NCBI GenBank assembly: GCA_014383605.1
Contig: JACNHM010000327.1
Location: forward strand, 1-11,487
Length of the DNA: 11,487 bases
Direction of reading: 5' to 3'
Source of the DNA: Chloroflexota bacterium
Lineage (GTDB): Bacteria; Chloroflexota; Anaerolineae; UBA3071
Shown here: piece by piece, positions 1-10,948 of the stretch
Layout of the letters: every line of letters begins with the position of its first letter
How positions within the stretch are numbered: position 1 is the first letter of the stretch
Made by a program: the position numbers and the translations under genes
The notes under the pieces: generated by a model
Databases searched by the model: none
Told to the model about the DNA's origin: nothing
What the model saw: the letters and a program-made list of their open reading frames with translations, nothing else

Positions 1-1207
1 CGTCCTCGACCGCCCTGGCGACGGCCTCCAACTCCTCCCGGCTGATGACCAGCGGCGGCAGGAAGCGCATCACGATCGGCCCCGCCGAAAGGGCCAGCAC
101 GCCTCGTTCCATCAGCGCCGCCAGATAAGGCCCGACCCGCTGCTTCAACTCGATGCCCACCATCAGGCCCAGGCCCCGCACCTGCCGGATGAGGGGCGAG
201 TTCATCTCCTGCAGGCGGGAGACGAAGTAGTCTCCCAGCTCCGCGGCGCGCTGTGGCAGGGCTTCTTCTTCGATGACACGAATGGCGGCCAGCGCCGCGG
301 CGCAGGCCAGCGGATTGCCGCCAAAGGTCGAGCCGTGCGCCTTGCCGGGCAGCTCCCCCACGCGGGGGCCCAGCAGCACCGCGCCCATGGGCACTCCGCC
401 GGCCATGGCCTTGGCCAGACAGAGCATGTCCGGCTCCAGACCGTGATGCTCGCAGGCGAACAGGCGGCCCGTGCGTCCAAAGCCCGTCTGCACCTCATCC
501 ACGATGAAGAGCGCCCCCCGCTCCTGGCAGAGCGCTTGCGCCCGGCGCAGATACTCGCCGCTGCCCGGCCTGACGCCCCCTTCTCCCTGCACCACCTCCA
601 GGATGACCGCCCCTGTGTTGTCGCCGATGGTTTCTTCGAGGGCGCCCACATCGTCGTAGGCGACATGCACGAAGCCTGGCACCAGCGGCTCGAAGGGCTG
701 GCGGTACTGGGGCTGCCAGGTGGCCGACAACGCCCCCAGGGTGCGGCCATGGAAGCTGTTCTTGGCAGCGACGATGCCCGGGCGACCGGTGACCAGGCGG
801 GCGAATTTGATGGCCGCCTCCACCGCCTCGGTGCCGGAATTGCACAGGAACACCCGCTCCAGGCCCGGCGGCGCGAGGCGCACCAGTTCAGCCTGCAGCT
901 CCGCCCGGCGGTCGTTGTAGAAAATCTCCTGACAGGTGATCAGCTTCTCGGCCTGCTCTTTGATGGCCGCCACCACGGCGGGATGGCAGTGGCCGACGTT
1001 GGCCACCCCATAACCGCTCACACAGTCAATGTAGGCTCGCCCCTGGGCGTCCCACACCCTGGCCCCCTCTCCCCGCACGACGACCAGAGGCCGCTTGCTG
1101 TACACCCCGCTGGTGTGGTTGTTCTCCAGCTCGATCCATTCCGCGACCTGCGGATTTGCGATTTGCGATTTGCGATTTGCAGATGTGCTGACTTGCTGAT
1201 GGGTCAT
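1..1207 (-). CDS. lysJ: LysJ/ArgD-type PLP aminotransferase ([LysW]-aminoadipate semialdehyde / acetylornithine aminotransferase family), 3' end cut by window
   Basis: Class III PLP-dependent aminotransferase that converts a LysW-bound semialdehyde to the amine (LysW-lysine or LysW-ornithine), normally with glutamate as donor; cytoplasmic. The frame is open from the ATG at 1207 to the window edge, giving 402 codons, so only a few C-terminal residues should be missing. Visible motifs are SGTEA (124-128) for PLP phosphate binding, DEVQTGFGR (237-245) with the PLP-contacting Asp, LAKAMAGG with the Schiff-base Lys at 266, HGSTFGGNPLACAAAL (291-306), and R381 in RFLPPL, the usual carboxylate contact. 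The start overlaps the lysZ stop as ATGA, implying translational coupling. Residues 10-19 (ANRKSQIANP) are encoded by a heptamer array and precede the conserved fold, so the N-terminal tail is probably dispensable. Family and pathway are secure from context. Whether it also serves as ArgD for arginine is inference. Confidence 0.93.
   Translation of the reverse strand, partial: MTHQQVSTSANRKSQIANPQVAEWIELENNHTSGVYSKRPLVVVRGEGARVWDAQGRAYIDCVSGYGVANVGHCHPAVVAAIKEQAEKLITCQEIFYNDRRAELQAELVRLAPPGLERVFLCNSGTEAVEAAIKFARLVTGRPGIVAAKNSFHGRTLGALSATWQPQYRQPFEPLVPGFVHVAYDDVGALEETIGDNTGAVILEVVQGEGGVRPGSGEYLRRAQALCQERGALFIVDEVQTGFGRTGRLFACEHHGLEPDMLCLAKAMAGGVPMGAVLLGPRVGELPGKAHGSTFGGNPLACAAALAAIRVIEEEALPQRAAELGDYFVSRLQEMNSPLIRQVRGLGLMVGIELKQRVGPYLAALMERGVLALSAGPIVMRFLPPLVISREELEAVARAVED
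1153..1180. repeat. Heptamer tandem array GATTTGC x4 inside the lysJ 5' end
   Basis: Four perfect head-to-tail copies of GATTTGC on the plus strand (GCAAATC in the coding sense). The array lies wholly in the lysJ reading frame and encodes residues 10-19. Because seven is not divisible by three, the array cycles through all frames and gives a seven-residue period (ANRKSQI) without a stop. Confidence 0.95.
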
Positions 1208-2007
1208 TGAATCACCGTCCCTCTGCCCGCCAGCGCCTGGCTGACCGGCGCTTCGATCCGTCCGTCGCTGAGGATCACCCGGCCGGCGCCGCCCGCCAGC
1301 GCCTCCGCGGCTCCCATCAGCTTCTTCTTCATGCGCCCCTGGGCGTAGGGCAAGTAGTCCTCCACGTCCCCGCGCCTGATGCTGCGGATCAGCGAGCTTT
1401 CATCGGGGAAGTCCTTCAGCAGGCCGGGAACGTTGGAGAGCAGGATCAGGGCCTCCGCCCGCAGCGCGGCGGCCACGGCTGCCGCCGCCCGGTCGCCGTC
1501 CACATTGACCATCTCGCCCTCGTGGCTGATGGCCAGCGGGGCGATGACCGGCGTGTAGCCGTGGTCGAGAAGCAGCCTCAGCAGGGAGATGTTGACCTGC
1601 TCGATGACGCCACTCCACTCGCCGTGCAGCACCTTGCGCTTGCCGTTCTCCATGATCTTCAGGGCCGACTTACGCCGCCCCGCCAGCAGCCGTCCGTCAG
1701 GCCCCGACAGTCCTACGGCGTTGACGCCCAGGCTTTGCAACCGCTCCACCAGCAGCTTGTTCACCCGTCCGGCCACCACCATGGCGAAGATCTCCAGCGT
1801 CTCCCGGTCGGTGTAGCGGCTGACGTGGCCCGAGACAGAGGTGACGAAGCGGGGCGGCTTGCCCAGCTTCTCGGAGATGACGTTGGTCTGGTGCGAGCCG
1901 CCGTGGACGAGCACCAGTTGCTCGCCTTTACGCACCAGTGGGGCGACATCGGCGCAGAGCGACTCGATACCCAATCCCTCCACCCCACCGATCTTGACGA
2001 CAATCAT
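1204..2007 (-). CDS. lysZ: LysZ/ArgB-family kinase ([LysW]-L-2-aminoadipate 6-kinase / [LysW]-glutamate kinase)
   Basis: Amino-acid kinase family, 267 aa. It phosphorylates the side-chain carboxylate of LysW-linked aminoadipate or glutamate with ATP, giving the acyl phosphate used by LysY. Visible elements are the N-terminal VVKIGG with K5 (phosphate contact), VHGGS (34-38, glycine-rich substrate/ATP loop), VNVDGDRAAAAVAAAL (167-182, the family's NxDxD-type segment) and GRMKKKL (224-230). The start is ATG 2007 with GGAGGT 8 bases upstream. It sits 18-19 bases after the lysY stop, and its own stop overlaps the lysJ start. The length suits the LysZ/ArgB family. The link to LysW rather than to free N-acetylglutamate is inferred from the neighbouring lysW and two LysX-type ligases and the lack of argJ/argA nearby; sequence alone could also be read as ArgB. 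Confidence 0.92.
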   Translation of the reverse strand: MIVVKIGGVEGLGIESLCADVAPLVRKGEQLVLVHGGSHQTNVISEKLGKPPRFVTSVSGHVSRYTDRETLEIFAMVVAGRVNKLLVERLQSLGVNAVGLSGPDGRLLAGRRKSALKIMENGKRKVLHGEWSGVIEQVNISLLRLLLDHGYTPVIAPLAISHEGEMVNVDGDRAAAAVAAALRAEALILLSNVPGLLKDFPDESSLIRSIRRGDVEDYLPYAQGRMKKKLMGAAEALAGGAGRVILSDGRIEAPVSQALAGRGTVIQ

Positions 2008-2026: not shown

Positions 2027-3064
2027 CTAGATCGGATGCAGCCCCGGGAACTCCAGCCCCGCCGTCTCCGGGAAACCGCACATCAGGTTCATCGCCTGCA
2101 CCGCGCTGCCGGCCGCGCCCTTCATCAAGTTGTCCAGGGCCGAGATGACCACCAAGCGGTTGCTCCCCTCTTCCCTGGTGAACCCCACGTCGCAGTAGTT
2201 GGAGCCGGCCAGGATCTTGGGCTCCGGGTAGCGATAGAAGCCGCGGCGGAACTTGACGATGCGGACGAACGGCTCGTTCCCGTAGGCTTGACGGTAGAGC
2301 TGCCAGACATCCTTCTCGCTGACGTCCGCGGTGAGGAAGCAGTGCGCCGTGGCCAACGCGCCGCGCACCAGCTCCACCGAGGTGACCGACATGTGGATGT
2401 CGGGGCGCTGCCCGTCGAAGGTCAACTCCTGCAACAGCTCGGCCATGTGGCGGTGGCTGGTGGGGGCGTAGGAGCGGACGACGTGGCTGCGCTCGGCGTG
2501 ATGGGAGGCGCTCGTGGGTTGAGCACCGCCCTCCGACGAGCCCACCTTGACCTCCACCACCGTCTTGCCGATCACGCCGGCGCGGCAGAGCGGCCACAGG
2601 GCCAGGTTGATGACGGTGGCGTTGCAGCCCACGCCGCTGACGTAACGAGCTTCCTGAAGCGCTTCTCGATGGAATTCCGGCAAGCCGTAGACGAAGCGGG
2701 GCAGCCAGGCGGGGGCCGGGTGCTGCCAATCGTACCAAAGCGGATAGTCGGCGGGATCGTGCAGCCGGAAGTCGGCGCTCAAGTCCACGATGCGTCCGGC
2801 GAGGGCGGCGAATTCCTCGACGCGCGGGGCCACCTGGCCATGCGGCAGGGCGGTGAAGAGCACGTCGCACGGTTCCAGCTCCTGCAACGACACCAGGCGC
2901 AGGTTCGTTCGCCCTCTGAGGTTGGGGTGCAGAAAGTGCGCTGGCTCGCCGGCGAAGCGCTCCGACGTCGCCTGCTTCACCACCACCTGGGGATGGTCCA
3001 GCAGCAGCCGCAATAGCTCTCCTCCGACGTATCCTGAGGCACCGACGATAGATGCGTTTAACAT
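2027..3064 (-). CDS. lysY: LysY/ArgC-family reductase ([LysW]-aminoadipyl/glutamyl phosphate reductase)
   Basis: NADPH-dependent acyl-phosphate reductase of 345 aa, making the LysW-bound semialdehyde from the LysZ product. The N-terminal Rossmann motif GASGYVGGELLRL (8-20) binds NADP. The catalytic cysteine is C147 in SGVGCNATVINL. A His-rich segment SHRHMAEL (203-210) carries the usual catalytic His, and a conserved C-terminal block (NLMKGAAGSAVQAMNLM) is present. The start is ATG 3064, with AGGAGAG about 6 bases upstream. Upstream, 131 bases separate it from the stop of the preceding ligase, and most of that gap is an 8-bp repeat array. This makes it the only wide gap inside the operon. A classical ArgC role on N-acetylglutamyl phosphate cannot be excluded from this gene alone; the LysW assignment comes from context. 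Confidence 0.92.
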   Translation of the reverse strand: MLNASIVGASGYVGGELLRLLLDHPQVVVKQATSERFAGEPAHFLHPNLRGRTNLRLVSLQELEPCDVLFTALPHGQVAPRVEEFAALAGRIVDLSADFRLHDPADYPLWYDWQHPAPAWLPRFVYGLPEFHREALQEARYVSGVGCNATVINLALWPLCRAGVIGKTVVEVKVGSSEGGAQPTSASHHAERSHVVRSYAPTSHRHMAELLQELTFDGQRPDIHMSVTSVELVRGALATAHCFLTADVSEKDVWQLYRQAYGNEPFVRIVKFRRGFYRYPEPKILAGSNYCDVGFTREEGSNRLVVISALDNLMKGAAGSAVQAMNLMCGFPETAGLEFPGLHPI

Positions 3065-3081: not shown

Positions 3082-3212
3082 GGGTAAGTTGGTGAACTGG
3101 TAAACTGGTAAATTGGTAAATTGGTCAACAGAGCCCGATTTGCCAATGTACCAATCTACCAGTTTCCCAATCTACCAATCTACCAGTTCCCCAATTTACC
3201 AATCTACCATTT
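3082..3212. repeat. Two converging 8-bp tandem arrays (TGGTAAAT-type / TACCAATC-type) between ligase B and lysY
   Basis: The left arm 3082-3129 holds six 8-bp units (plus strand: TGGTGAAC, TGGTAAAC, TGGTAAAT twice, TGGTCAAC, with a degenerate first unit). After a 19-base spacer (3130-3148), the right arm 3149-3212 holds eight units of the opposite sense (TACCAATC, TACCAGTT, TCCCAATC, and so on). The arms are roughly reverse complements, so the transcript could fold into a long imperfect hairpin. The right arm runs into the 3' end of ligase B and supplies its last codons and TAA stop. The tract is AT-rich against the GC-rich surroundings. Confidence 0.93.
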
Positions 3213-4104
3213 GCAACACGTAATCAACCATCCTACCCGCGATATCCACCTCCACGGCCTGCATGGCGCCGTGGAATTCAGGCGTGTGATTCACCTCGTT
3301 GACCAGCAAGCGGCCATCGGCAGTTTCCATGAGGTCCACGGCCAGGATGCCCCCGCCCACGGCCTGGGCGGCCGCCAGCGACAGCTCTCTGATGTCCGGA
3401 GTGATGGGACAGGGCAGGGCCTCGCCGCCGCGGGCGGTGTTGGTGATCCAGTGGGCCGAGCGGCGGTACATGGCGTAGGCGACCTCGTCGCCGATGACCA
3501 TGGTGCGGATGTCGCGGCCGGGCTTGTCCACGTACTCCTGGATGTAGAAGACGCTGTGCAGCGGCCCGCCCAGGGTGGCCTTGTGCTTGAGCACCGCCTC
3601 GGCTGTGTCCCGGTCGTTGACCTTGCTCAGCAGCCGCCCCCACGAGCCCACGGCCGGCTTCAGCACCACCGGATAGCCCATCTCCTCGATGGTTTGCAGG
3701 GCCGCCTCGACGCTGAGCGCCACCACGGTGCGCAGGGTGGGGACGTTGTGCTGCAACAGAGCCAGGGTGGTCAGCACCTTGTCGCCGCAGATGTGCACCA
3801 CCTGATAGCTGTTCACCGTCCTGATCCCCCAGCTGTTGAGGATGTTGAGGGCGTAAAGTGCCCGCGTGTGGCTGATGGCGCGGCACCAGATCACGTCATA
3901 CCCATCGGCAAAGAGCCTGTCCGAAAAGTCCGCAGAGGCGTCTCCCAGCCGCCGACAAGGTGTCGGCTCTCCGTTGTGGGCCTGCAACCGCAGGGCCAGA
4001 TGTCCCTCATCCAGCCGATCATACGCGATGCCGCGCGCTTCCAGGGCTCGGAAGATGTGCTTTTCCTCCAGGCGGATGCGGGAACAGAGGATGCCTAGCT
4101 TCAC
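3196..4104 (-). CDS. LysX/ArgX-family ATP-grasp ligase, second paralog (LysW-amino acid ligase of uncertain substrate)
   Basis: ATP-grasp (RimK/LysX family) ligase of 302 aa, expected to join an amino acid through its alpha-amino group to the C-terminal Glu of LysW. Motifs match its upstream paralog: [11 protein letters not shown] (107-117), [17 protein letters not shown] (147-162), [15 protein letters not shown] (186-200), [13 protein letters not shown] (217-229) and [12 protein letters not shown] (267-277, Mg/ATP-binding Glu and Asn). It differs in an insertion of about 20 residues (roughly 46-67) and in the loop after EF. That loop reads [13 protein letters not shown] here but [13 protein letters not shown] in the paralog, which points to a different substrate. 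The GTG start at 4104 overlaps the previous stop as GTGA and aligns with the paralog's N-terminus. The final residues MVDW and the stop lie in the repeat array. It could be ArgX (glutamate) or another specificity; a symbol is not justified. Confidence 0.88.
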
Positions 4105-4955
4105 CTTCCCGGTTCCATAGTAGCCACCTCCAAGGCGTAATCCACGATGCGACCGGCGATATCCACCCCTGTGGGTCCGATGCTGTTGCGGAACTCCGGC
4201 GTGTGGTTCACTTCCGCTACCAGCAGATGGCCATCGGGGGCCTCCAGGATGTCCACGGCCACCGCCCCGCCGCCCACTGCCTCCGCCGCGGCGCGGGAGA
4301 TGCGCTCGATCTCCGGAGTGATGGGACAGGCCGTGGCTTCCCCTCCCCGCGCCGTGTTAGTGATCCAGTGCGGTGCGTGCCGGTAGATAGCGGCGATGAC
4401 TTCGCCGCCGACGACGAAGCTGCGGATATCGCGCCCAGGCTTCTCCACGTACTCCTGAATGTAGAAGATGGAGTGACGATAGCCACCGAGGGTGTGCTTG
4501 TGTTCCAGGATCGTCTCCGCCGCATCACGATCGTTGATCTTGGCCAGAAGCCGTCCCCACGAACCGTTCAGGGGCTTCAACACCGCCGGATAGCCCATCT
4601 GCTCAATGGCTTGCAGGGCTGCCTGCGTGCTGAAAGCCACCTTGGTGCGCGGCGTGGGGACGCCACGCTTAGCCAGCGCCAGGCTGGTCAGCAGCTTGTC
4701 GCCGCAGGTGGCGATGACCTCGTAAGTATTGACCGTGGGTTGCCCGCTATCGCCCAGCAGCTTGCTGGCGTACAGGGCGCGCCAATGGCTCAGGCAGCGC
4801 ACGAGCACCACGTCGTAGCCATTGATGCCCTGCAAAAGACCCAGGGTGATGCCGTTAGCGTCAATCCGCTCGGCATCCACCCCTCGGTCGCGCAGGGCCT
4901 CGAAGATCAACTTCTCCTCGACGCGAACTCGGGAACACAGAACACCGACCCTCAT
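4101..4955 (-). CDS. lysX: LysX, LysW-alpha-aminoadipate (or glutamate) ligase
   Basis: ATP-grasp ligase of 284 aa that attaches the substrate amino group to the C-terminal Glu of LysW, using ATP. Visible motifs are [15 protein letters not shown] at the N-terminus, [12 protein letters not shown] (84-95), [16 protein letters not shown] (125-140), [15 protein letters not shown] (164-178), [12 protein letters not shown] (196-207) and the metal-site segment [12 protein letters not shown] (244-255). The following loop [13 protein letters not shown] resembles what I remember of Thermus LysX (a N-S-x-x-x-T-G pattern), so this copy is the more canonical one. The start is ATG 4955, which aligns with the paralog's start; a longer reading from 5018 would run back into lysW and is rejected. 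GGGGAG lies inside the end of lysW as the likely ribosome site. Only 4 bases separate it from lysW, and its TGA overlaps the next GTG. Confidence 0.92.
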
Positions 4956-4959
4956 GTTG

Positions 4960-5124
4960 TCACTCTCCCCAGTCTTCCTCCTCCTCCGGTGCCAGGTCCA
5001 GGACGATGGGATCCACACCCATCACCTCCAACTCGATACCGCAGTCATGGCAGACCACGATTTCCCCCACTTCCGTGTCGGGGGCCAGTTGCAATTCAGC
5101 AGCGCATTCGGGACATTCAGTCAT
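4960..5124 (-). CDS. lysW: LysW amino-group carrier protein
   Basis: A 54-residue acidic carrier that protects the alpha-amino group of the pathway intermediate by an isopeptide-type link to its C-terminal Glu, and presents it to LysX, LysZ, LysY and LysJ. The N-terminus holds a zinc-ribbon-like pair of CxxC motifs (C4-x2-C7 and C25-x2-C28). The middle is hydrophobic, and the C-terminus is the diagnostic EDWGE preceded by an acidic run (EEEEDWGE), ending exactly at Glu54. The gene is short enough to be missed by ORF callers with a length cut-off. The start is ATG 5124 behind a near-perfect Shine-Dalgarno site. It heads the operon and is the first gene after the long attenuator-like leader. 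The EDWGE tail together with adjacent ATP-grasp ligases makes this identification very secure. Confidence 0.97.
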
Positions 5125-5154: not shown

Positions 5155-5178
5155 CCGCTGGACGGCCACGTCCAGCGG
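5155..5178. other. Perfect 10-bp inverted repeat with 4-base loop
   Basis: CCGCTGGACG and CGTCCAGCGG are separated by GCCA. No T-run follows on either strand, so it is not an intrinsic terminator. It lies 18 bases upstream of the lysW ribosome site, within the untranslated leader and downstream of the attenuator. It probably acts on RNA stability or translation, and it is the inner stem of the shared leader element. Confidence 0.85.
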
Positions 5179-5227: not shown

Positions 5228-5272
5228 AAAAAAGGCCGTCTCTCCTGGTCAATGCATCTGGAGAGTCGGCCT
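5228..5272 (-). terminator. Rho-independent terminator acting as attenuator in the lysW leader
   Basis: In the RNA sense AGGCCG-A-CTCTCC, a 14-base loop, then GGAGAG-A-CGGCCT running into six T. The stem has 12 pairs with one A/A mismatch, and the U-tract is immediate. It lies between the promoter (about 5438) and lysW (5124), so it should stop lysW-operon transcripts early unless the stem is disrupted. Its 5' arm is also the target of the antiterminator pairing. Confidence 0.9.
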
Positions 5273-5345
5273 GCAGCTACGGTGAGCCGATAACTAAGCG
5301 AAATCTACCTCCGCGGCAACATCCGGCAGGGCGAAACTCCCCAGA
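5257..5345 (-). promoter_or_regulatory. Antiterminator pairing (5326-5345 with 5257-5274)
   Basis: RNA segment UCUGGGGAGUUUCGCCCUGC (5345 to 5326), inside the leader peptide frame, can pair with GCAGGCCGACUCUCCAGA (5274 to 5257), which contains the terminator's whole 5' arm. I count 17 pairs: 10 contiguous including one G-U, a UU bulge, 2 pairs, one C/C mismatch, then 5 pairs. This helix and the terminator cannot coexist. Segment 5341-5344 (CTGG) can also pair with 5354-5357 (CCAG) just upstream, giving the usual 1:2 / 2:3 / 3:4 layout. Pairings were found by eye; no folding energies were computed. Confidence 0.75.
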
Positions 5346-5415
5346 GCGAGCGCCTGGAACGCCTGGACCTGATCTGCTTGGAGGTTCGCTTGCCGAACAA
5401 CGTCATGAGGTACAT
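5305..5415 (-). CDS. Arginine-rich leader peptide of the lysW operon (36 codons)
   Basis: The short frame from ATG 5415 to TAG 5305 begins 23 bases inside the predicted -10 element and ends 32 bases before the terminator stem. It encodes 36 residues, of which 9 are Arg and 2 Lys. Seven residues from position 16 read RSRRSRR, and the peptide ends in RR. Four Arg codons are AGG. GGAG or GGA lies just upstream; a second ATG at codon 4 (5406) is better spaced (10 bases after GGAG) and could be the true start. The RSRRSRR codons (5370-5350) sit directly upstream of the antiterminator strand (5345-5326), as expected for a ribosome that stalls when charged tRNA-Arg is short. Arg is common in GC-rich random frames, so the case rests on the position of the run together with the RNA pairings. 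A purely structural role for the 9-bp repeat (TTCCAGGCG-like) encoding the run is the alternative. Confidence 0.65.
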   Translation of the reverse strand: MYLMTLFGKRTSKQIRSRRSRRSLWGVSPCRMLPRR

Positions 5416-5437
5416 GCTCCGTTTCCGAATTACCGCT

Positions 5438-5466
5438 TTTATACCACAGTTCGTAGCATTTGTCAA
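5438..5466 (-). promoter_or_regulatory. Sigma-70-type promoter of the lysW operon
   Basis: In the coding sense TTGACA (5466-5461), 17 bases, TATAAA (5443-5438). This is a perfect -35, optimal spacing and a -10 with one mismatch to TATAAT. Transcription would start near 5431, leaving a leader of about 306 bases before lysW. It lies just downstream of the capA stop, so the operon is transcribed independently. Confidence 0.87.
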
Positions 5467-5513: not shown

Positions 5514-7262
5514 CTACCACCCGCTGGCGGCAGAGATGGTGCCCAGGACTTCTTCGCGCTCCCCAGGCGTGGCCCAGCGGGGCTGCGCCCAATCCTCCAG
5601 AATGGTCACCAGCAGCTCCGTGCTGATGTGACGGCCCTCGTAGATGACGTGGCGGGCGATCAGCCCCTGCCGCGCCTCCCACCACATCTGGTCAAAGAAG
5701 AGATTGCCCAGGCCGTAAAGAATGATCCCATCAGAAGTGAATTCCAGCGCCTGCGGCCGGTGCGCCTGCACGCCGGTGACGATGTCCGCCCCGGCGGCGC
5801 TGAGCGCTTCGAAGTCCGCTCGCTGCTTGGGCAGCGGTTCCGTCTGGTAGTCCCCCAGGTCGTTGAACTCGGTGTGCTGGATTTCCACCAGCACCAGGTC
5901 CACGTCTGCCCGCACGGCGGCGATGTCCGCCGTCATGGTCTCCAGATCGAAATAGGCCGAGCCGGGGCTGTCGGCGGTGGCCAGGGCTTCGGGAGGGCCG
6001 AACTCATTGGCCCCCAGGAAGGCCAGCCGATTGGCGTTGTGCGTGATGACAAGCGGCTTGCGGGCCTCTTCATCGTTGGCGCCGCCGCCGTACACGGGCA
6101 GCTCGTGCTCGGCGTAGATCTCCAGCGACTGGAGCATGGCCTCCTGGCCGAAGTCGTTCTGATGGTTGCCCGTCAGGCCGACGATGTCCACCCCCACCTC
6201 TTCCAGCGCGGCCAGATACTCCGGCTTGGAGCAGAGAACGATGTTGTTGAGGGTGGGGTCGGCCAGGCAGCCGGGCACGAGCGGTACCTCGTTGCTGATG
6301 TGCGTGATGTCGGCGGCGGCCAGCTCGGGGCCGATGACGTGGGCCGGATAAGCGTAATCCTCGTAGACTTCCATCTTCCAGGCCGTCATGCGGGACATGG
6401 CCGTCACCCCGGTCATCACCAGCACGGTGAGCTTGTGGGGATCGCGGTTGGTGGCGGGCACGCCCTCCCGCAGATGGGTCAGCAGATCCTCGGCCTGCGC
6501 TTCCGAGCCGTGCAGCCAGACGCGCAGCGTTAGCGGCCAGTCGCTTTGCGCCAACCGGTTGTCCACCGCCGAAAGCCCGTCCAGACGCAGAGCCCTGAGC
6601 CGCGGCTCCAACCGCTCGAAGGGCACGATGGACAGGGCCTGCTCGTCCTGCCAGAGAGCTTCCGTCAGCTCCTCGTCCGGCAGCAGCTCGACGCCCTCCC
6701 CCGGCGGCCCCCAGAGCCCGGCCAGCTCGGCCGCCGTCGCCTCGGTCACCAGCAGGCGGGCGAAGCCACCTGTCCCCGCCCACGTCTGGCGCAGCTCGTC
6801 CAGCGTGACCCCCTCGCGCAGCGTGGGAAAGCGCTGCACAGGCACGTAGATGCACTCGCTGACCAGGCGGGCGTCCGATGCCGGTTTCAGGTCCAGGCGC
6901 AGGTCGGCGACGCCTTCCGCCACGACGACCACGCCCCGCTCCGCAGCCCAGGCCTGGACCGCGTCGGCGATGGGAAGTGGTAAGTCGGCCGCCAGCGCCA
7001 AGCGGATGGCCGGCGTGGGCGTCACCGTGGGAGCGACAGGAGAAGGCGTGGGCAGCGGTGTGGCGACCACAGCAGAGGGGGTCGGTGTTGGCGTGGCCGT
7101 GGGCGGATGGTAGACAACCGTCGGCGGAACAGCGGCGGTCGCCGTTTCGGCGACAGGCGGTGATGGCACGATGACCTGCGGTGCGGGCTGCCGCTGGCAG
7201 GAAAGGACGCCGCAGAGCAGCGCACAGCCACTCAGCAAGAGAACGCTCCGAAACGCAATCAA
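5514..7262 (-). CDS. CapA-family lipoprotein with N-terminal binding-protein-like domain
   Basis: 582 aa, probably lipid-anchored outside the membrane. A short hydrophobic signal (MIAFRSVLLLSGCALLCGVLSC) offers two possible lipobox cysteines: C13 after LSG fits best but leaves a short signal, and C22 after VLS is the alternative. A Pro/Thr/Ser/Ala linker runs from about 30 to 85 (TATPTPTPS-like). Residues about 87-270 resemble a phosphate-type periplasmic-binding fold (YVPVQRFPTLREGVTLDEL, SIVPFERLEPR). Residues about 278-570 are CapA/PgsA-like: MTGVTAMSR in place of GDxMxxR, SNEVPLV, LTGNHQNDFG (363-372), IQHTEFND, GADIVTGVQAHRPQALEF (491-508) and YGLGNLFFDQ. The family is named for capsule polyglutamate synthesis, but substrates are mostly unknown. 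The start is TTG 7262; no ATG or GTG is in frame upstream, and the ribosome site is weak. It sits between the sugar genes and the lysW operon with no clear link to either. Confidence 0.85.
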   Translation of the reverse strand: MIAFRSVLLLSGCALLCGVLSCQRQPAPQVIVPSPPVAETATAAVPPTVVYHPPTATPTPTPSAVVATPLPTPSPVAPTVTPTPAIRLALAADLPLPIADAVQAWAAERGVVVVAEGVADLRLDLKPASDARLVSECIYVPVQRFPTLREGVTLDELRQTWAGTGGFARLLVTEATAAELAGLWGPPGEGVELLPDEELTEALWQDEQALSIVPFERLEPRLRALRLDGLSAVDNRLAQSDWPLTLRVWLHGSEAQAEDLLTHLREGVPATNRDPHKLTVLVMTGVTAMSRMTAWKMEVYEDYAYPAHVIGPELAAADITHISNEVPLVPGCLADPTLNNIVLCSKPEYLAALEEVGVDIVGLTGNHQNDFGQEAMLQSLEIYAEHELPVYGGGANDEEARKPLVITHNANRLAFLGANEFGPPEALATADSPGSAYFDLETMTADIAAVRADVDLVLVEIQHTEFNDLGDYQTEPLPKQRADFEALSAAGADIVTGVQAHRPQALEFTSDGIILYGLGNLFFDQMWWEARQGLIARHVIYEGRHISTELLVTILEDWAQPRWATPGEREEVLGTISAASGW

Positions 7263-7280: not shown

Positions 7281-7357
7281 GGTTTGAGGTTTGAGGTTTG
7301 AGGTTTGAGGTTTGCTCTTTGAGCTTTGAGCTTTGAGCTTTGGATTTGGAGGTTTTA
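7281..7357. repeat. Heptamer tandem array (GGTTTGA / GCTTTGA) spanning the araB stop and the araB-capA gap
   Basis: Eleven consecutive 7-bp units: GGTTTGA four times, GGTTTGC, TCTTTGA, GCTTTGA twice, GCTTTGG, then two degenerate units ATTTGGA and GGTTTTA. The last three bases of the array are the reverse complement of the araB TAA stop. The other end lies 18 bases before the capA start. Two sequence variants are segregated into left and right blocks, suggesting expansion by slippage of two founders. Confidence 0.93.
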
Positions 7358-9037
7358 TGCTATTCCCAAAACCTCAGCCTTGACGCGCTTCAGCCGCTTC
7401 ATCACGTCATTGGCGCCGCGGCCGAAGTAGTCGTGCAAGATCTTGTACTCAGCGTATAGCTGATCGTACACGGCCTGATTACCGGCAAGAGGCCGGAAGA
7501 CCTCGTCCTTGAGATGGGCCATGTGCTGCGCGGCCTCGAAGATGGTGTCGTAGCCGCCGGCCTCTTGGCCCGCGGCCACGGCCCCGAACATGGCCGAGCC
7601 CAAGGCGCCCGCCTGCTTGGAAGCCGCCACCTTGAACTCCCGCCCGGTGACGTCGGCGTAGATCTGCATCAGCAGCTTGTTGCGCTCCGGCAGGCCGCCC
7701 GTGGCCACGATCTCCTTCACGGCCACGCCGCTCTCCTCGAAGGTCTCGATGATGATGCGCGTGCCGTAAGCAGTGGCCTCGATGAGGGTGCGGTAGATTT
7801 CCTCCGGTTTGGTCAGCAGCGTGGCTCCCAGGAGCATGCCCGTCAGGTCCACGTCCACCAGCACGGAGCGGTTGCCGTTCCACCAATCCAGGGCCAGCAA
7901 GCCGCTCTCGCCTGGCCGCAGGGCGGCGGCCTTTTCCTCCAGCAGTTGATGCAGGTTCAGCCCGCGAGCCAGGGCCTCCTCCTGGTACGCGGCGGGCACG
8001 CAGTGCTCCACGAACCAGGCGAAGTGGTCGCCGACGCAGGATTGCCCGGCCTCGTAGCCGAAGAGGCCGGGGATGATGCCATCCTCGACCACGCCGCACA
8101 TGCCGGGAACGATGTGCTTGGCCTCGCCCAGCACCATGTGGCAGGTGGAGGTGCCCATGATCATCACCATGCGGCCGATCTCGGTGACCGTGGCCGCGGG
8201 CACGGAGACGTGGGCGTCCACGTTGCCGATGGACACCGCCGTGCCCGGCCGCAGCCCCGTCCACTGCGCCGCCTGTTCGGTCAGGCCGCCGGCGCGACCG
8301 CCCAGGGGGTAGATGTCCCGCGAAAGCTTCTCATCCACCACGTGGCGCAGCCGGGGGTCCAGGGCAGCGAAGAAGTCATCCGAGGGGTAGCCCGTCCCCT
8401 TCTCCCAAACGGCCTTGTAGCCCGCCGTGCAGGAGTTGCGCCGCTCCGCCCCCGTCAGTTGCAGCACGATCCAGTCGGCCCCCTCCACGTAGCGGTCAGC
8501 CGCGGCGTAGACTTCCGGAGCCTTGTTCAGCGTCTCCCAGATTTTAGGGAAGAGCCACTCGGAGGAGATTTTGCCACCGTAGCGGGGGAGCCACTCCTCG
8601 CTCCGCTCGGCGGCAATGCGGTTCAGCTCGTTGGCCTCGGGCTGGGCGGCGTGGTGCTTCCAGATCTTGACCCAGGCGTAGGGGTTGTCCCGCCACTCCG
8701 CCTTCAGGCACAGGGGGATGCCCGCCTCGTCAATGGGCAGCATGGTGCAGGCGGTGAAGTCAGTGCCCAGGCCGATGACGTCCTCGTCACTCACGCTCGC
8801 CTCTTGCAACACGGCGGGGATGGTCACCTTGAGGACCTCGATGTAGTCGGCGGGGTTCTGCAGAGCGAAGTCGGGCGGCAGCCAAATGTCGGTGCCCGGC
8901 AATTGCTCGTCAATGACACCGTCGCCGTAGGGATGGACGGCGGTGGCCACCTCCTCGCCCGTGGCCACGTCCACCAGCACAGCGCGGCCCGATTCGGTGC
9001 CAAAGTCAATGCCGATGGCGTATTTCCTCTCAGTCAT
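7355..9037 (-). CDS. araB: Ribulokinase (FGGY family)
   Basis: 560 aa, the usual length for bacterial ribulokinase. It phosphorylates L-ribulose (and often D-ribulose and ribitol) to the 5-phosphate with ATP, in arabinose/pentose catabolism; cytoplasmic. The N-terminal phosphate loop is [15 protein letters not shown] (9-23). Signature segments are [13 protein letters not shown] (89-101), [11 protein letters not shown] (121-131) and [14 protein letters not shown]. The likely catalytic base is Asp274 in GNVDAHV. The second-domain segment is [13 protein letters not shown] (292-304), followed by [16 protein letters not shown]. The start is ATG 9037, with AGGAG 5-6 bases upstream. It follows the other FGGY kinase by 106 bases. 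No araA or araD is in the window, so the pentose route cannot be completed here. The DFTACT and KHHAA motifs separate it well from xylulokinase. Confidence 0.93.
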
Positions 9038-9091
9038 GATAGCTCCTCTCTGTTGTCATGCGGGAGTGTAGTTCGGTTATGTCAAAAGCAC

Positions 9092-9119
9092 GTGATGCGT
9101 GATGCGTGTTGCGTGAATA
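9092..9119. repeat. Heptamer tandem array GTGATGC (four units)
   Basis: GTGATGC twice, then GTGTTGC and GTGAATA, lying in the 106-base gap between the FGGY kinase and araB. No promoter or terminator is evident in the rest of that gap. Confidence 0.8.
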
Positions 9120-9143
9120 TGGCTGCTCGCTGATTCGCTCAGA

Positions 9144-10649
9144 TCACAATTGGTGATTGAGCTCTGCCAAGGTCGGGTAGACCTGGGCGAAGAGTTGGAA
9201 ACTCTCCATGTAACGCTCGTGCAAGGCCAGGTCCGGCTCGTAGGTGCGCCCGATGCGCACCATCTGGGCCAGGGCCTCTTCCATGGAGGAAAACACGCCG
9301 GTGGCCACGCCGGCCAGGATGGCCACGCCCAGGCAGGGCGCTTCGGAGACGGCGACGGCCCGCACCGGCTTGCCGTAGATGTCGGCCTTGGTCTGCAGCC
9401 ACAGCGGAGACTTGGCGCCGCCGCCAAAGGCGCGCAGCTCCCGCACGGCGATGCCGGCCGCCTCCATAGCGTCCACGCTCAGCTTGACCTCATAGCTGAC
9501 GCTGTCCAGCATGGCCTTGATGATCTGCCCTCTGCTGGTGCTCAGGTCCAGGCCCAGAATCGCCCCTTTGGAGTCGGCGTCCATCGAGGGTGTTCCAGCG
9601 CCCACGAAATGCGGCAGGATCAGCACCGGCGACGGCCCCGGCGTGGCCTGCTGCAGGATCAGATCGTAGACGTCCTGGCCGGTTCGCTCCGCCTCCTGTC
9701 GCTCGGCGCCGGCGAAGTTGTCGCGATACCAGCGCAGCAGGGCGCCGCCGGTGGAGGAATAGCCCAGCACCAGGTACATGCCCGGCGCGGTGTGCGGGGC
9801 GATGGGCAGGTTGCTCTGCATGAGCGCCTCGTTCAGCACCAGCCGGGGCGAGGCCACGGCCACGCACTCCACAGTGCCCGTGGAATCCATGGCCACACCC
9901 TCGGCGATGGCGCCGCACCCCAGCGCCCCGCTAGGCTGATCGTGCCCTCCCGTCACCCCCACCGCGCCTGGCGCCAGCCCCAACTCCTCGATGACCGCCG
10001 CCGGGATCTCGCCGATGACCGTGCCCGAAGGCAGCACCTGCGACATCCGCGCCACGTCCAACTGGGCCAGTTCCAGGATTTCCTCGGACCAGGCCAGTCG
10101 CGACACGTCGAAGGCCATGGTGCGGGTGGCCAGGGTGCGGTCCATGGTCGGCGGCAACCCCAGTTGGTGGAAGACGAAATCCTGCATGCACAGGAAGCGG
10201 TGGGCCGCCCTGAACACGTGCGGATCGTTCTGCCGCAGCCACATCAGTTTGTTCACCGTGTACATGGGGTGCAGCGGCATGCCGGTGATGTAGAAGATGC
10301 GCTCTTTGCCCAACCGCTCGCCCCACCAACGGGCCTGCTCGCCAGCGCGGGTGTCAATGGCGGTGATGAAACCGTAGATGGGCCGGCCCTGCGCGTCCAC
10401 CGGCACAACGGATTCGCCGTGCGTGGACACGCTCAGCGCCCGCACCGGATCGGCAGCGACGGCGGCCGTCACCTGGCGGATGACGCCGGCCACCGCCGCC
10501 CAGACCTCGGCCGGGTCCAGCTCCATCCAGCCGGGCTGCGGCTGGTAGAGGCGATACTCGCGGTAGGCCTGAGCAAGCATATCGCCTTCGGGGCTGAAGG
10601 CCACCGCCTTGCAGCCCGTGATGCCGATGTCCAGTCCCAGTAAACTCAT
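9144..10649 (-). CDS. FGGY-family carbohydrate kinase, substrate unknown
   Basis: 501 aa two-domain sugar kinase. The N-terminal ATP-phosphate loop is LLGLDIGITGCKAVAF (3-18). STHGESVVPVDAQGRP (75-90) and AIDTRAGEQ (97-105) form the sugar-side elements. GGHDQPSGALGCG (234-246) holds the likely catalytic base Asp237. MDSTGTVECVA (254-264) and a C-terminal FGGGAKSPLWLQTKADIYGKPV complete the ATP site. It resembles the xylulokinase/gluconokinase branch, but I cannot assign a sugar. Start choice: ATG 10649 (GAGG 5 bases upstream) places LLGLDIG at the usual N-terminal position. A start at 10700 would add 17 unconserved residues and overlap the SEC-C gene. The 26-base gap from the SEC-C stop suggests co-transcription with it and with the aldolase upstream. 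Confidence 0.9.
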   Translation of the reverse strand: MSLLGLDIGITGCKAVAFSPEGDMLAQAYREYRLYQPQPGWMELDPAEVWAAVAGVIRQVTAAVAADPVRALSVSTHGESVVPVDAQGRPIYGFITAIDTRAGEQARWWGERLGKERIFYITGMPLHPMYTVNKLMWLRQNDPHVFRAAHRFLCMQDFVFHQLGLPPTMDRTLATRTMAFDVSRLAWSEEILELAQLDVARMSQVLPSGTVIGEIPAAVIEELGLAPGAVGVTGGHDQPSGALGCGAIAEGVAMDSTGTVECVAVASPRLVLNEALMQSNLPIAPHTAPGMYLVLGYSSTGGALLRWYRDNFAGAERQEAERTGQDVYDLILQQATPGPSPVLILPHFVGAGTPSMDADSKGAILGLDLSTSRGQIIKAMLDSVSYEVKLSVDAMEAAGIAVRELRAFGGGAKSPLWLQTKADIYGKPVRAVAVSEAPCLGVAILAGVATGVFSSMEEALAQMVRIGRTYEPDLALHERYMESFQLFAQVYPTLAELNHQL

Positions 10650-10675
10650 GGCAACCTCGTTGGTGTTTTCGGTGG

Positions 10676-10948
10676 TTATCGTCGTCGTTTCCTCTGGCAA
10701 CAGTGCTTGTACTTCAGACCGCTGCCGCAGGGACAGGGATCGTTACGCCCCACTCTTGCTTCTGCGCTCATCGAGGTTTGAGGATTGAGAAGCCGTTCTA
10801 CGTCAGAGACATCCTCAGTCTTATCCGGTTCTATGCCCACGATGACCTTCCAGCCGTGTCTGTTGCAGACGGAGAGAATCTCTCCAGCCCTATCCTGTGT
10901 CTGAACACGAACCACAGCCGGCCGTTCAGTGGTTCCCAGCTTTGCCAT
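10676..10948 (-). CDS. Small SEC-C zinc-motif protein
   Basis: 90 aa, cytoplasmic. The N-terminal half (about 1-55, [20 protein letters not shown]... ending DVERLLNPQ) is a compact domain of unknown function. The C-terminus is a canonical SEC-C zinc motif, [17 protein letters not shown], with C72, C74, C83 and C84 plus H82, then a basic tail QRKRRR. The arrangement resembles the small SWIM/SEC-C family I remember as PBPRA1643-like; that name is from memory and not checked. SEC-C tails occur on SecA and on many small proteins, where they bind zinc and sometimes ribosomes; the role here is unknown. The start is ATG 10948 with GAGAGGT 7 bases upstream. It is preceded by the second copy of the lysW-type leader element and followed by a sugar kinase, with no obvious functional tie. 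Confidence 0.85.

Follow-up and report, generated by a model that had tools for sequence, protein, structure and literature searches.

A probable arginine-sensing leader-peptide attenuator in front of a LysW-type biosynthetic operon in Chloroflexota

The window, by which we mean the whole 11,487-nucleotide stretch of Chloroflexota DNA analysed here, carries on its reverse strand, in this order, a promoter, a leader, a terminator, lysW, two RimK-type ligase genes and homologues of argC, argB and argD. The lysW gene (4962..5124) encodes a carrier protein with the C-terminus EEDWGE and scores over the cut-off of TIGR01206. It is followed by a lysX-type ligase gene (4101..4955; TIGR02144) and an argX-type ligase gene (3196..4104). 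The NCBIfam model scores both products as LysX; the types were assigned by reading the five-residue substrate signature, which is NSIGP in the first ligase (NSVHT in Thermus LysX) and GAMQA in the second (GFMVA in Sulfolobus ArgX). The remaining genes, each over the cut-off of its model, encode an argC/lysY-type reductase (2027..3064; TIGR01850), an argB/lysZ-type kinase (1204..2007; NF010659) and an argD/lysJ-type aminotransferase (2..1207; TIGR00707) that continues past the window edge. Upstream of the operon, and running in the same direction, lies a gene with a match to the PGA_cap domain (5514-7262). Two adjacent FGGY-family carbohydrate kinases are encoded at 7355-10700, also on the reverse strand.

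The putative attenuator begins with a sigma-70-type promoter (5438..5466, reverse strand) made up of TTGACA (5466-5461), a 17-base spacer and TATAAA (5443-5438), with TGG before the latter as a TGn element; promoters of the same style precede the related leaders. The leader peptide gene (5415-5305), on which our reading and a composition-blind pick (described below) agree, has 36 codons and encodes MYLMTLFGKRTSKQIRSRRSRRSLWGVSPCRMLPRR, with nine Arg residues, RSRRSRR at codons 16-22 and two Lys in total. Beyond it lies an intrinsic terminator (5272-5228) of 12 pairs with a folding energy of -20.7 kcal/mol (z -3.5 against shuffles), followed by six T residues. Segment 1 (5389-5380) can pair with 5340-5331 in segment 2, the antiterminator strand (5345-5326); segment 2 can pair with segment 3 (5274-5257), the 5' arm of the terminator; and segments 3 and 4 form the terminator itself. 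Helices 1:2, 2:3 and 3:4 use common strands and hence compete. The alternative helix is included in the fold of 5349-5254 (-40.8 kcal/mol, z -2.3) and reached about 14-17 pairs (5349-5326 with 5276-5257) in the ribosome-position scan below. Promoter, Arg-rich leader, terminator and competing helix had all been proposed in a preliminary description of this DNA and are present; the Arg run does lie just before the antiterminator strand, at a distance of four bases rather than the five given there. As in a leader-peptide attenuator, the first gene is preceded by a promoter, a short and presumably translated frame and an intrinsic terminator whose 5' arm can be sequestered by another helix, and the control codons correspond to the predicted end product, arginine, a correspondence to which genome G007 (below) is an exception. 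Between the terminator and lysW there is also a perfect 10-base inverted repeat (CCGCTGGACG/CGTCCAGCGG; 5155-5178, reverse strand; -21.3 kcal/mol, z -3.8), which has no T-run and is absent from the L002 leader.

Taken singly, the leader of the window hardly stands out from chance, although its terminator is strong. At least five Arg codons within eight, in any frame, occurred in about 10% of dinucleotide shuffles (p ~0.1), the fold of the 204-nt leader had a z of -1.5, and a three-frame test for Arg runs on single regions gave no clear signal for Arg and some for Lys. Since the Arg content of the window leader is within chance for GC-rich DNA, the case rests on comparison with relatives. Scanning genome contigs gave 130 related loci, of which 80 were kept, among them 18 'tandem' loci in which a LysX-type ligase is followed by one with the GA signature. 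An Arg leader plus terminator precedes lysW at 11 of these 18; three have no such arrangement before lysW (L013, L014 and L019), the contig ends before lysW in two (L012 and L026), and the leader is cut by a contig end in two (L001 and L015), the terminator and segment 2 still being visible in L001. The leader is retained in relatives whose DNA farther upstream diverges.

For the helices, the window was aligned with eight of the tandem-locus leaders, giving nine sequences. Pairing was preserved in 98.8% of 81 cells for helix 1:2, in all cells for helix 2:3 (100%, 108/108; 12 pairs counted) and in 96.3% of cells for helix 3:4. Four pairs of the terminator are altered on both sides; in a shuffle test the covariation score was reached by 0 of 500 shuffles, and four such pairs by 13 of 500. 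Helices 1:2 and 2:3 vary too little among the nine sequences for covariation to show; three variable sites in segment 3 can still pair with segment 2, via G-C/G-U or U-A/U-G. Immediately 3' of the Arg run the peptide varies among relatives (LWGVS, GALGSF, RGSGEF) over an unchanged segment 2 RNA, which would follow if protein coding mattered in the Arg part alone. Both the Arg-rich frame and the alternative helix, whose absence from orthologous leaders the preliminary description had named as evidence against an attenuator, are present in the aligned orthologues. Judged by sequence comparison, the pattern across relatives does exceed chance: leader and helices are conserved, the terminator has compensatory changes and the codons match the pathway.

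We then modelled a ribosome at each leader codon, with a footprint from 17 bases before to 13 bases after the first A-site base, on a transcript stopped just past segment 3. With codons 6-20 of the window leader in the A site, about 14-17 pairs of helix 2:3 formed; there were 0.2 pairs without a ribosome and 0 to 1.7 for codons after 20, except codon 33 (5.5). Arg10, Arg16, Arg18 and Arg19 fall inside this permissive range and Arg21 and Arg22 just outside it; when either of the latter occupies the A site, the modelled footprint overlaps part of the antiterminator strand. The earlier proposal that stalling in the Arg run frees that strand thus holds in the modelled scan for Arg16, Arg18 and Arg19 (and also Arg10), and fails for Arg21 and Arg22. 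A ribosome at the stop codon had been thought to mask 5345-5326; the modelled footprint extends only to about 5324, and in the model it is hairpin 1:2 (5389-5380 with 5340-5331), not the stop-codon ribosome, that leaves the terminator free. When the full transcript was considered at equilibrium, the terminator was preferred at nearly every ribosome position, so the switch would have to be kinetic and decided before segment 4 emerges. In known attenuators the decision likewise precedes the emergence of segment 4.

When arginine is scarce, a ribosome trailing RNA polymerase would stall at Arg10, covering segment 1, or alternatively at Arg16-19, covering part of segment 1 or sitting in the 1-2 loop. 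Segment 2 would then be free as segment 3 emerges, helix 2:3 would form and block the terminator, and the operon would be transcribed. With plentiful arginine, or with no ribosome, segment 2 would be occupied by a moving ribosome or by segment 1, hairpin 1:2 being able to form when both of its segments are free of ribosome; segment 3 would be left free and the 3:4 terminator would halt transcription. Here we infer the stalling itself, its dependence on the charging of tRNA-Arg and the timing of folding relative to transcription. The attenuator reading is based on the presence of the parts, on their preservation in relatives, on helices that compete for strands and on leader codons that agree with the pathway, and we consider it very likely. 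Under this reading the leader would control transcription of a LysW-based operon for arginine, perhaps also for lysine, by gauging arginine supply through charged tRNA-Arg.

Arginine is a well-supported product of the operon on genomic grounds. The preliminary description had predicted it from the leader, and the prediction is supported by the ArgX-type ligase, the argG and argH genes of the related runs in G002 and G001, the lack of ArgJ in relatives and an attenuator in G495 (below). A LysW-dependent arginine pathway has a glutamate-type ligase signature after EF; such a signature is found in the second window ligase, its Gly-Ala being read by analogy, and GAMQA aligns beside GFMVA of ArgX in 3vpb. 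Changing Asn-Thr of SaLysX to Gly-Phe is reported to shift its preference from alpha-aminoadipate to glutamate (PMC10433800). By analogy, the operon would encode one LysX-type and one ArgX-type ligase. In genome G002 the first ligase shares 88% identity with its counterpart in the window, and the genes run attenuator-lysW-lysX-argX-argC-argB-argD-LysK/ArgE-like peptidase-argG-argH (peptidase, argG and argH were identified by eye, argG in addition by PF00764). By eye, the arrangement in G001 is identical except that a PEP-carboxylase-like gene (L275, 3560-5041) is inserted in the LysW operon after argC and ahead of argB. Of the 30 genomes that have a Gly-type ligase at the locus, 1 has ArgJ, as against 8 of the 10 that lack such a ligase there; the exceptions are G028, with ArgJ alongside its ArgX-type ligase, and the pair G036 and G040, which have neither ArgJ nor a Gly-type ligase at the locus.

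Lysine synthesis by the LysW route in the organism of the window is suggested by its LysX-type ligase. DAP epimerase scored over the cut-off in 4 of 40 genomes and in 0 of the 18 tandem genomes, which are drafts. Homocitrate synthase did so in 19 of the 40 and in five of the 18 (G004, G010, G011, G013 and G015; all drafts), and was not found over the cut-off in the drafts G001 and G002, the nearest relatives of the window. The homocitrate synthase gene of G013 and G015 lies directly 3' of an argB-like gene (L144, L145), and no lysW attenuator was seen in these two genomes (none at L013; L015 cut by a contig end).

Arginine leaders also occur before argG. An exact search for CTCTGGGGAGTTTCGC over 396 genomes of the class matched ten, eight of them lysW leaders already known. 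The match in G455 (L268), immediately upstream of another gene where neither a leader nor a terminator could be seen, was taken as chance. The remaining match, in G495, is new: the attenuator of the lysW operons recurs there, with the leader MTSFGKRNFRQIVIRRFRSRRSLWGVS..., directly before argG, which is followed by argH. We collected 30 argG loci, read 18 of them and submitted all 30 to the composition-blind pick; nine of the 30 (L285-L287, L290-L292, L296, L297 and L302; L285 by eye, L286 with a weak T tract) carry both an Arg leader and their own terminator-like hairpin. Two further argG attenuators may be present at L301 and L303, in ArgJ-bearing genomes, each with a weak promoter, a frame reading RRRPAGSG and a terminator-like hairpin.

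Lysine counterparts precede homocitrate synthase or lysine-type lysW operons, with leaders such as SKRAKSKKPDPKSG, KKCKRFMPDPGSG, KCKHSKPDLGSG and KIKKMMKK. Two Lys-codon attenuators in series, each with a terminator, are found before homocitrate synthase at L149, L150 and L152 and before lysW at L153 and L154. At homocitrate synthase loci, a strict scan for promoter, ORF and terminator overlooked several leaders that were visible on reading the DNA. The tandem genomes G004 and G010 have a look-alike of the window attenuator before homocitrate synthase, so that each carries two leaders on one RNA frame (CTCTGGGGAG with GGCCGACTC): Arg-run codons (RRARPKR or RRARAKR) stand before lysW-lysX-argX, and Lys-bearing codons (QKPRPKQ or RPKKETLK) before homocitrate synthase. 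Another look-alike, in G007 (L271, 1230-1460), does not fit a simple Arg-or-Lys picture. Its leader, MYWYGVRTLQNPRPEENPRAGALGSSRAAG, includes NPRPEENPR and has four Arg, three Pro and no Lys; downstream of it, by eye, lie proC, a gene resembling PEP carboxylase and two that resemble homocitrate synthase but score below the cut-off.

Leaders were also picked without regard to composition, from a start codon, a Shine-Dalgarno sequence and a stop codon 35-105 bases before the terminator, which yielded 95 leaders from 246 usable regions. Requiring a promoter score of 9.5 and a terminator of -15 gave a strict set of 44 leaders, each assigned to the arginine or the lysine class. Six unclassified picks, 21 rows with a ligase of a third type (x; signature mostly HT..P, one row archaeal with ALSGA) and the G007 look-alike were left out of the counts; the arginine-class picks at L122 and L134, frames other than the Arg-rich one, were retained as picked. 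In the best six-codon window, Arg outnumbered Lys in all 24 strict arginine-class leaders, one of which (L172) may not be an attenuator; in the 20 of the lysine class, Lys outnumbered Arg in 12, six were ties and Arg outnumbered Lys in two. The class contrast gave a Fisher value of 1.8e-10 ignoring kinship, and p 0.008 when leaders were clustered by similarity (15 and 13 clusters). With the promoter demand dropped, 34 of 37 arginine-class leaders had more Arg, and the 45 of the lysine class divided into 21 with more Lys, 10 ties and 14 with more Arg. Because GC-rich DNA favours Arg over Lys codons, the 24/24 is partly background. Relative to their own base composition, arginine-class leaders had 109 Arg where 84.9 were expected (1.28x, z 2.8) and 29 Lys where 14.9 were expected (1.94x, z 3.7); those of the lysine class had 53 Lys where 19.8 were expected (2.68x, z 7.7) and 58 Arg where 68.7 were expected. 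By these figures the class contrast is driven mostly by the lysine class, the stronger half. Within each of the nine genomes in which both kinds were read, with leaders chosen by eye, every arginine leader was more Arg-weighted than every lysine leader (9/9; sign test 0.002).

The stall model was also applied to the 44 strict leaders. At permissive codons, Arg was enriched in the arginine class (42/189 versus 67/498) and Lys in that of lysine (22/128 versus 31/373), both at p 0.007, with no enrichment of Lys in the arginine class or of Arg in the lysine class. No permissive codon was found in six of the 44 (L125, L159, L160, L176, L188 and L247), and the permissive range misses the Arg run in L003, L005, L016, L129 and L132. 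We lean slightly towards a broader reading, in which Chloroflexota and relatives would control arginine and lysine synthesis on the shared LysW carrier through a family of attenuators whose specificity is set by exchange of Arg and Lys codons, partly through duplicated leaders, so that the codons would reveal the product of an otherwise ambiguous LysW operon. This reading is weakened by the third copy of the frame, in G007 ahead of proC and other genes, where Arg codons occur and Lys codons do not.

The main alternative concerns what is sensed. Every one of the 12 tandem-operon leaders picked with an attenuator has at least one Lys codon, and the 1.94-fold excess of Lys in the arginine class points the same way: the leader could report lysine as well as arginine, the Lys codons of RRARAKRS being of consequence, as would suit an operon that encodes ligases of both the ArgX and the LysX type. 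We regard such a dual sensor as unlikely, although worth keeping in mind, for the arginine-only argG leaders mostly contain Lys codons too (7 of 9, not L286 or L302), and homocitrate synthase has a separate attenuator in G004 and G010. A Thermus-type lysine leader, with Lys control codons before lysine genes, is not what the window has; its leader has nine Arg and two Lys.

The other alternatives leave arginine attenuation aside altogether or change how it acts. It is very improbable that the terminator merely serves the upstream gene and that the Arg-rich frame is a random one in GC-rich DNA with no regulation. Arg richness alone is indeed not significant, the leader fold has a z of only -1.5 and the PGA_cap gene does run in the same direction; yet a promoter separates that gene from the terminator, the leader persists in relatives with different DNA farther upstream, the terminator changes are compensatory and the leader codons match the pathway. 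Equally hard to credit is a different switch, be it a T-box, a riboswitch or an arginine repressor, that uses the leader and makes the frame incidental. T-boxes serve arginine genes elsewhere (PMC1262725), but no Rfam family, T-box and known riboswitches included, reached its gathering score in the window; moreover, leaders of quite different RNA sequence have Arg or Lys codons in common, and in most of them the stop codon lies about 50-75 bases before the T-run. Ribosome pausing might also sense arginine but act by way of Rho or of RNA decay; a precedent is the speF leader of Salmonella, where two Arg codons of orf34 sense arginine (PMC6386406). The strong intrinsic terminator and the competing helix of the window make this most unlikely here.

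The his, trp and leu attenuators of enteric bacteria place control codons within a short leader, have helices that exclude one another and use an intrinsic terminator, and the window leader is alike in all three respects. It differs in its occurrence in Chloroflexota, in arginine as the sensed amino acid and in a stop codon past segment 2, so that hairpin 1:2, not a parked ribosome, would permit termination. The lysine operon of Thermus likewise has a leader-peptide attenuator; in two Thermus genomes we found 14-codon frames with KK (MLARAKKLGRRGVG and MLAREKKLRRGGAG) before homocitrate synthase. Promoter, short frame and terminator ahead of LysW-pathway genes are common to both, whereas Thermus has Lys codons (with Arg) and lysine genes and the window has Arg codons and an arginine operon. 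Aside from this Thermus lysine case, our search of the open-access literature found no report of leader-peptide attenuation for arginine synthesis or LysW operons.

The speF leader of Salmonella resembles that of the window in that ribosome pausing at Arg codons of orf34 reports arginine; replacing these by Lys codons abolishes the arginine response, and the system works through Rho, translation and RNase G on polyamine synthesis, as against a biosynthetic operon and an intrinsic terminator in the window (PMC6386406). The LysW pathway of Sulfolobus likewise uses one carrier and two ligases, ArgX and LysX, with later enzymes in common, whereas the window system is bacterial, with adjacent ligases in one operon and an attenuator ahead (PMC10433800). 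Before the Firmicutes finding of a 2010 survey, amino-acid-specific leader peptides were known only in Proteobacteria and Actinobacteria, according to that survey (PMC2965389). Leader-peptide attenuation is a known mechanism; what is apparently new is its use to sense arginine for a biosynthetic operon of this phylum, with lysine-codon counterparts in the same genomes. If the reading is right, Chloroflexota join the lineages with amino-acid-specific leader peptides, nature has performed a codon-swap experiment, and the leader offers a sequence-only hint for separating operons of the ArgX kind from those of the LysX kind, whose ligases the NCBIfam model scores alike as LysX.

Two other groups of loci were observed in the course of this work. 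Within the searched phylum, a third ligase signature, mostly HT..P, occurs beside lysW (L083, L085-L087, L090-L092, L094, L095, L101, L103, L106, L155, L162, L163, L167-L169, L171 and L207); at L155 this ligase lies directly before homocitrate synthase and the leader has a mixed KRRK. Acidobacterial LysX-type operons (L044, L048, L050 and L055) have a distinct conserved leader, ..RK[RW]KC..IGGPC.., followed by a terminator.
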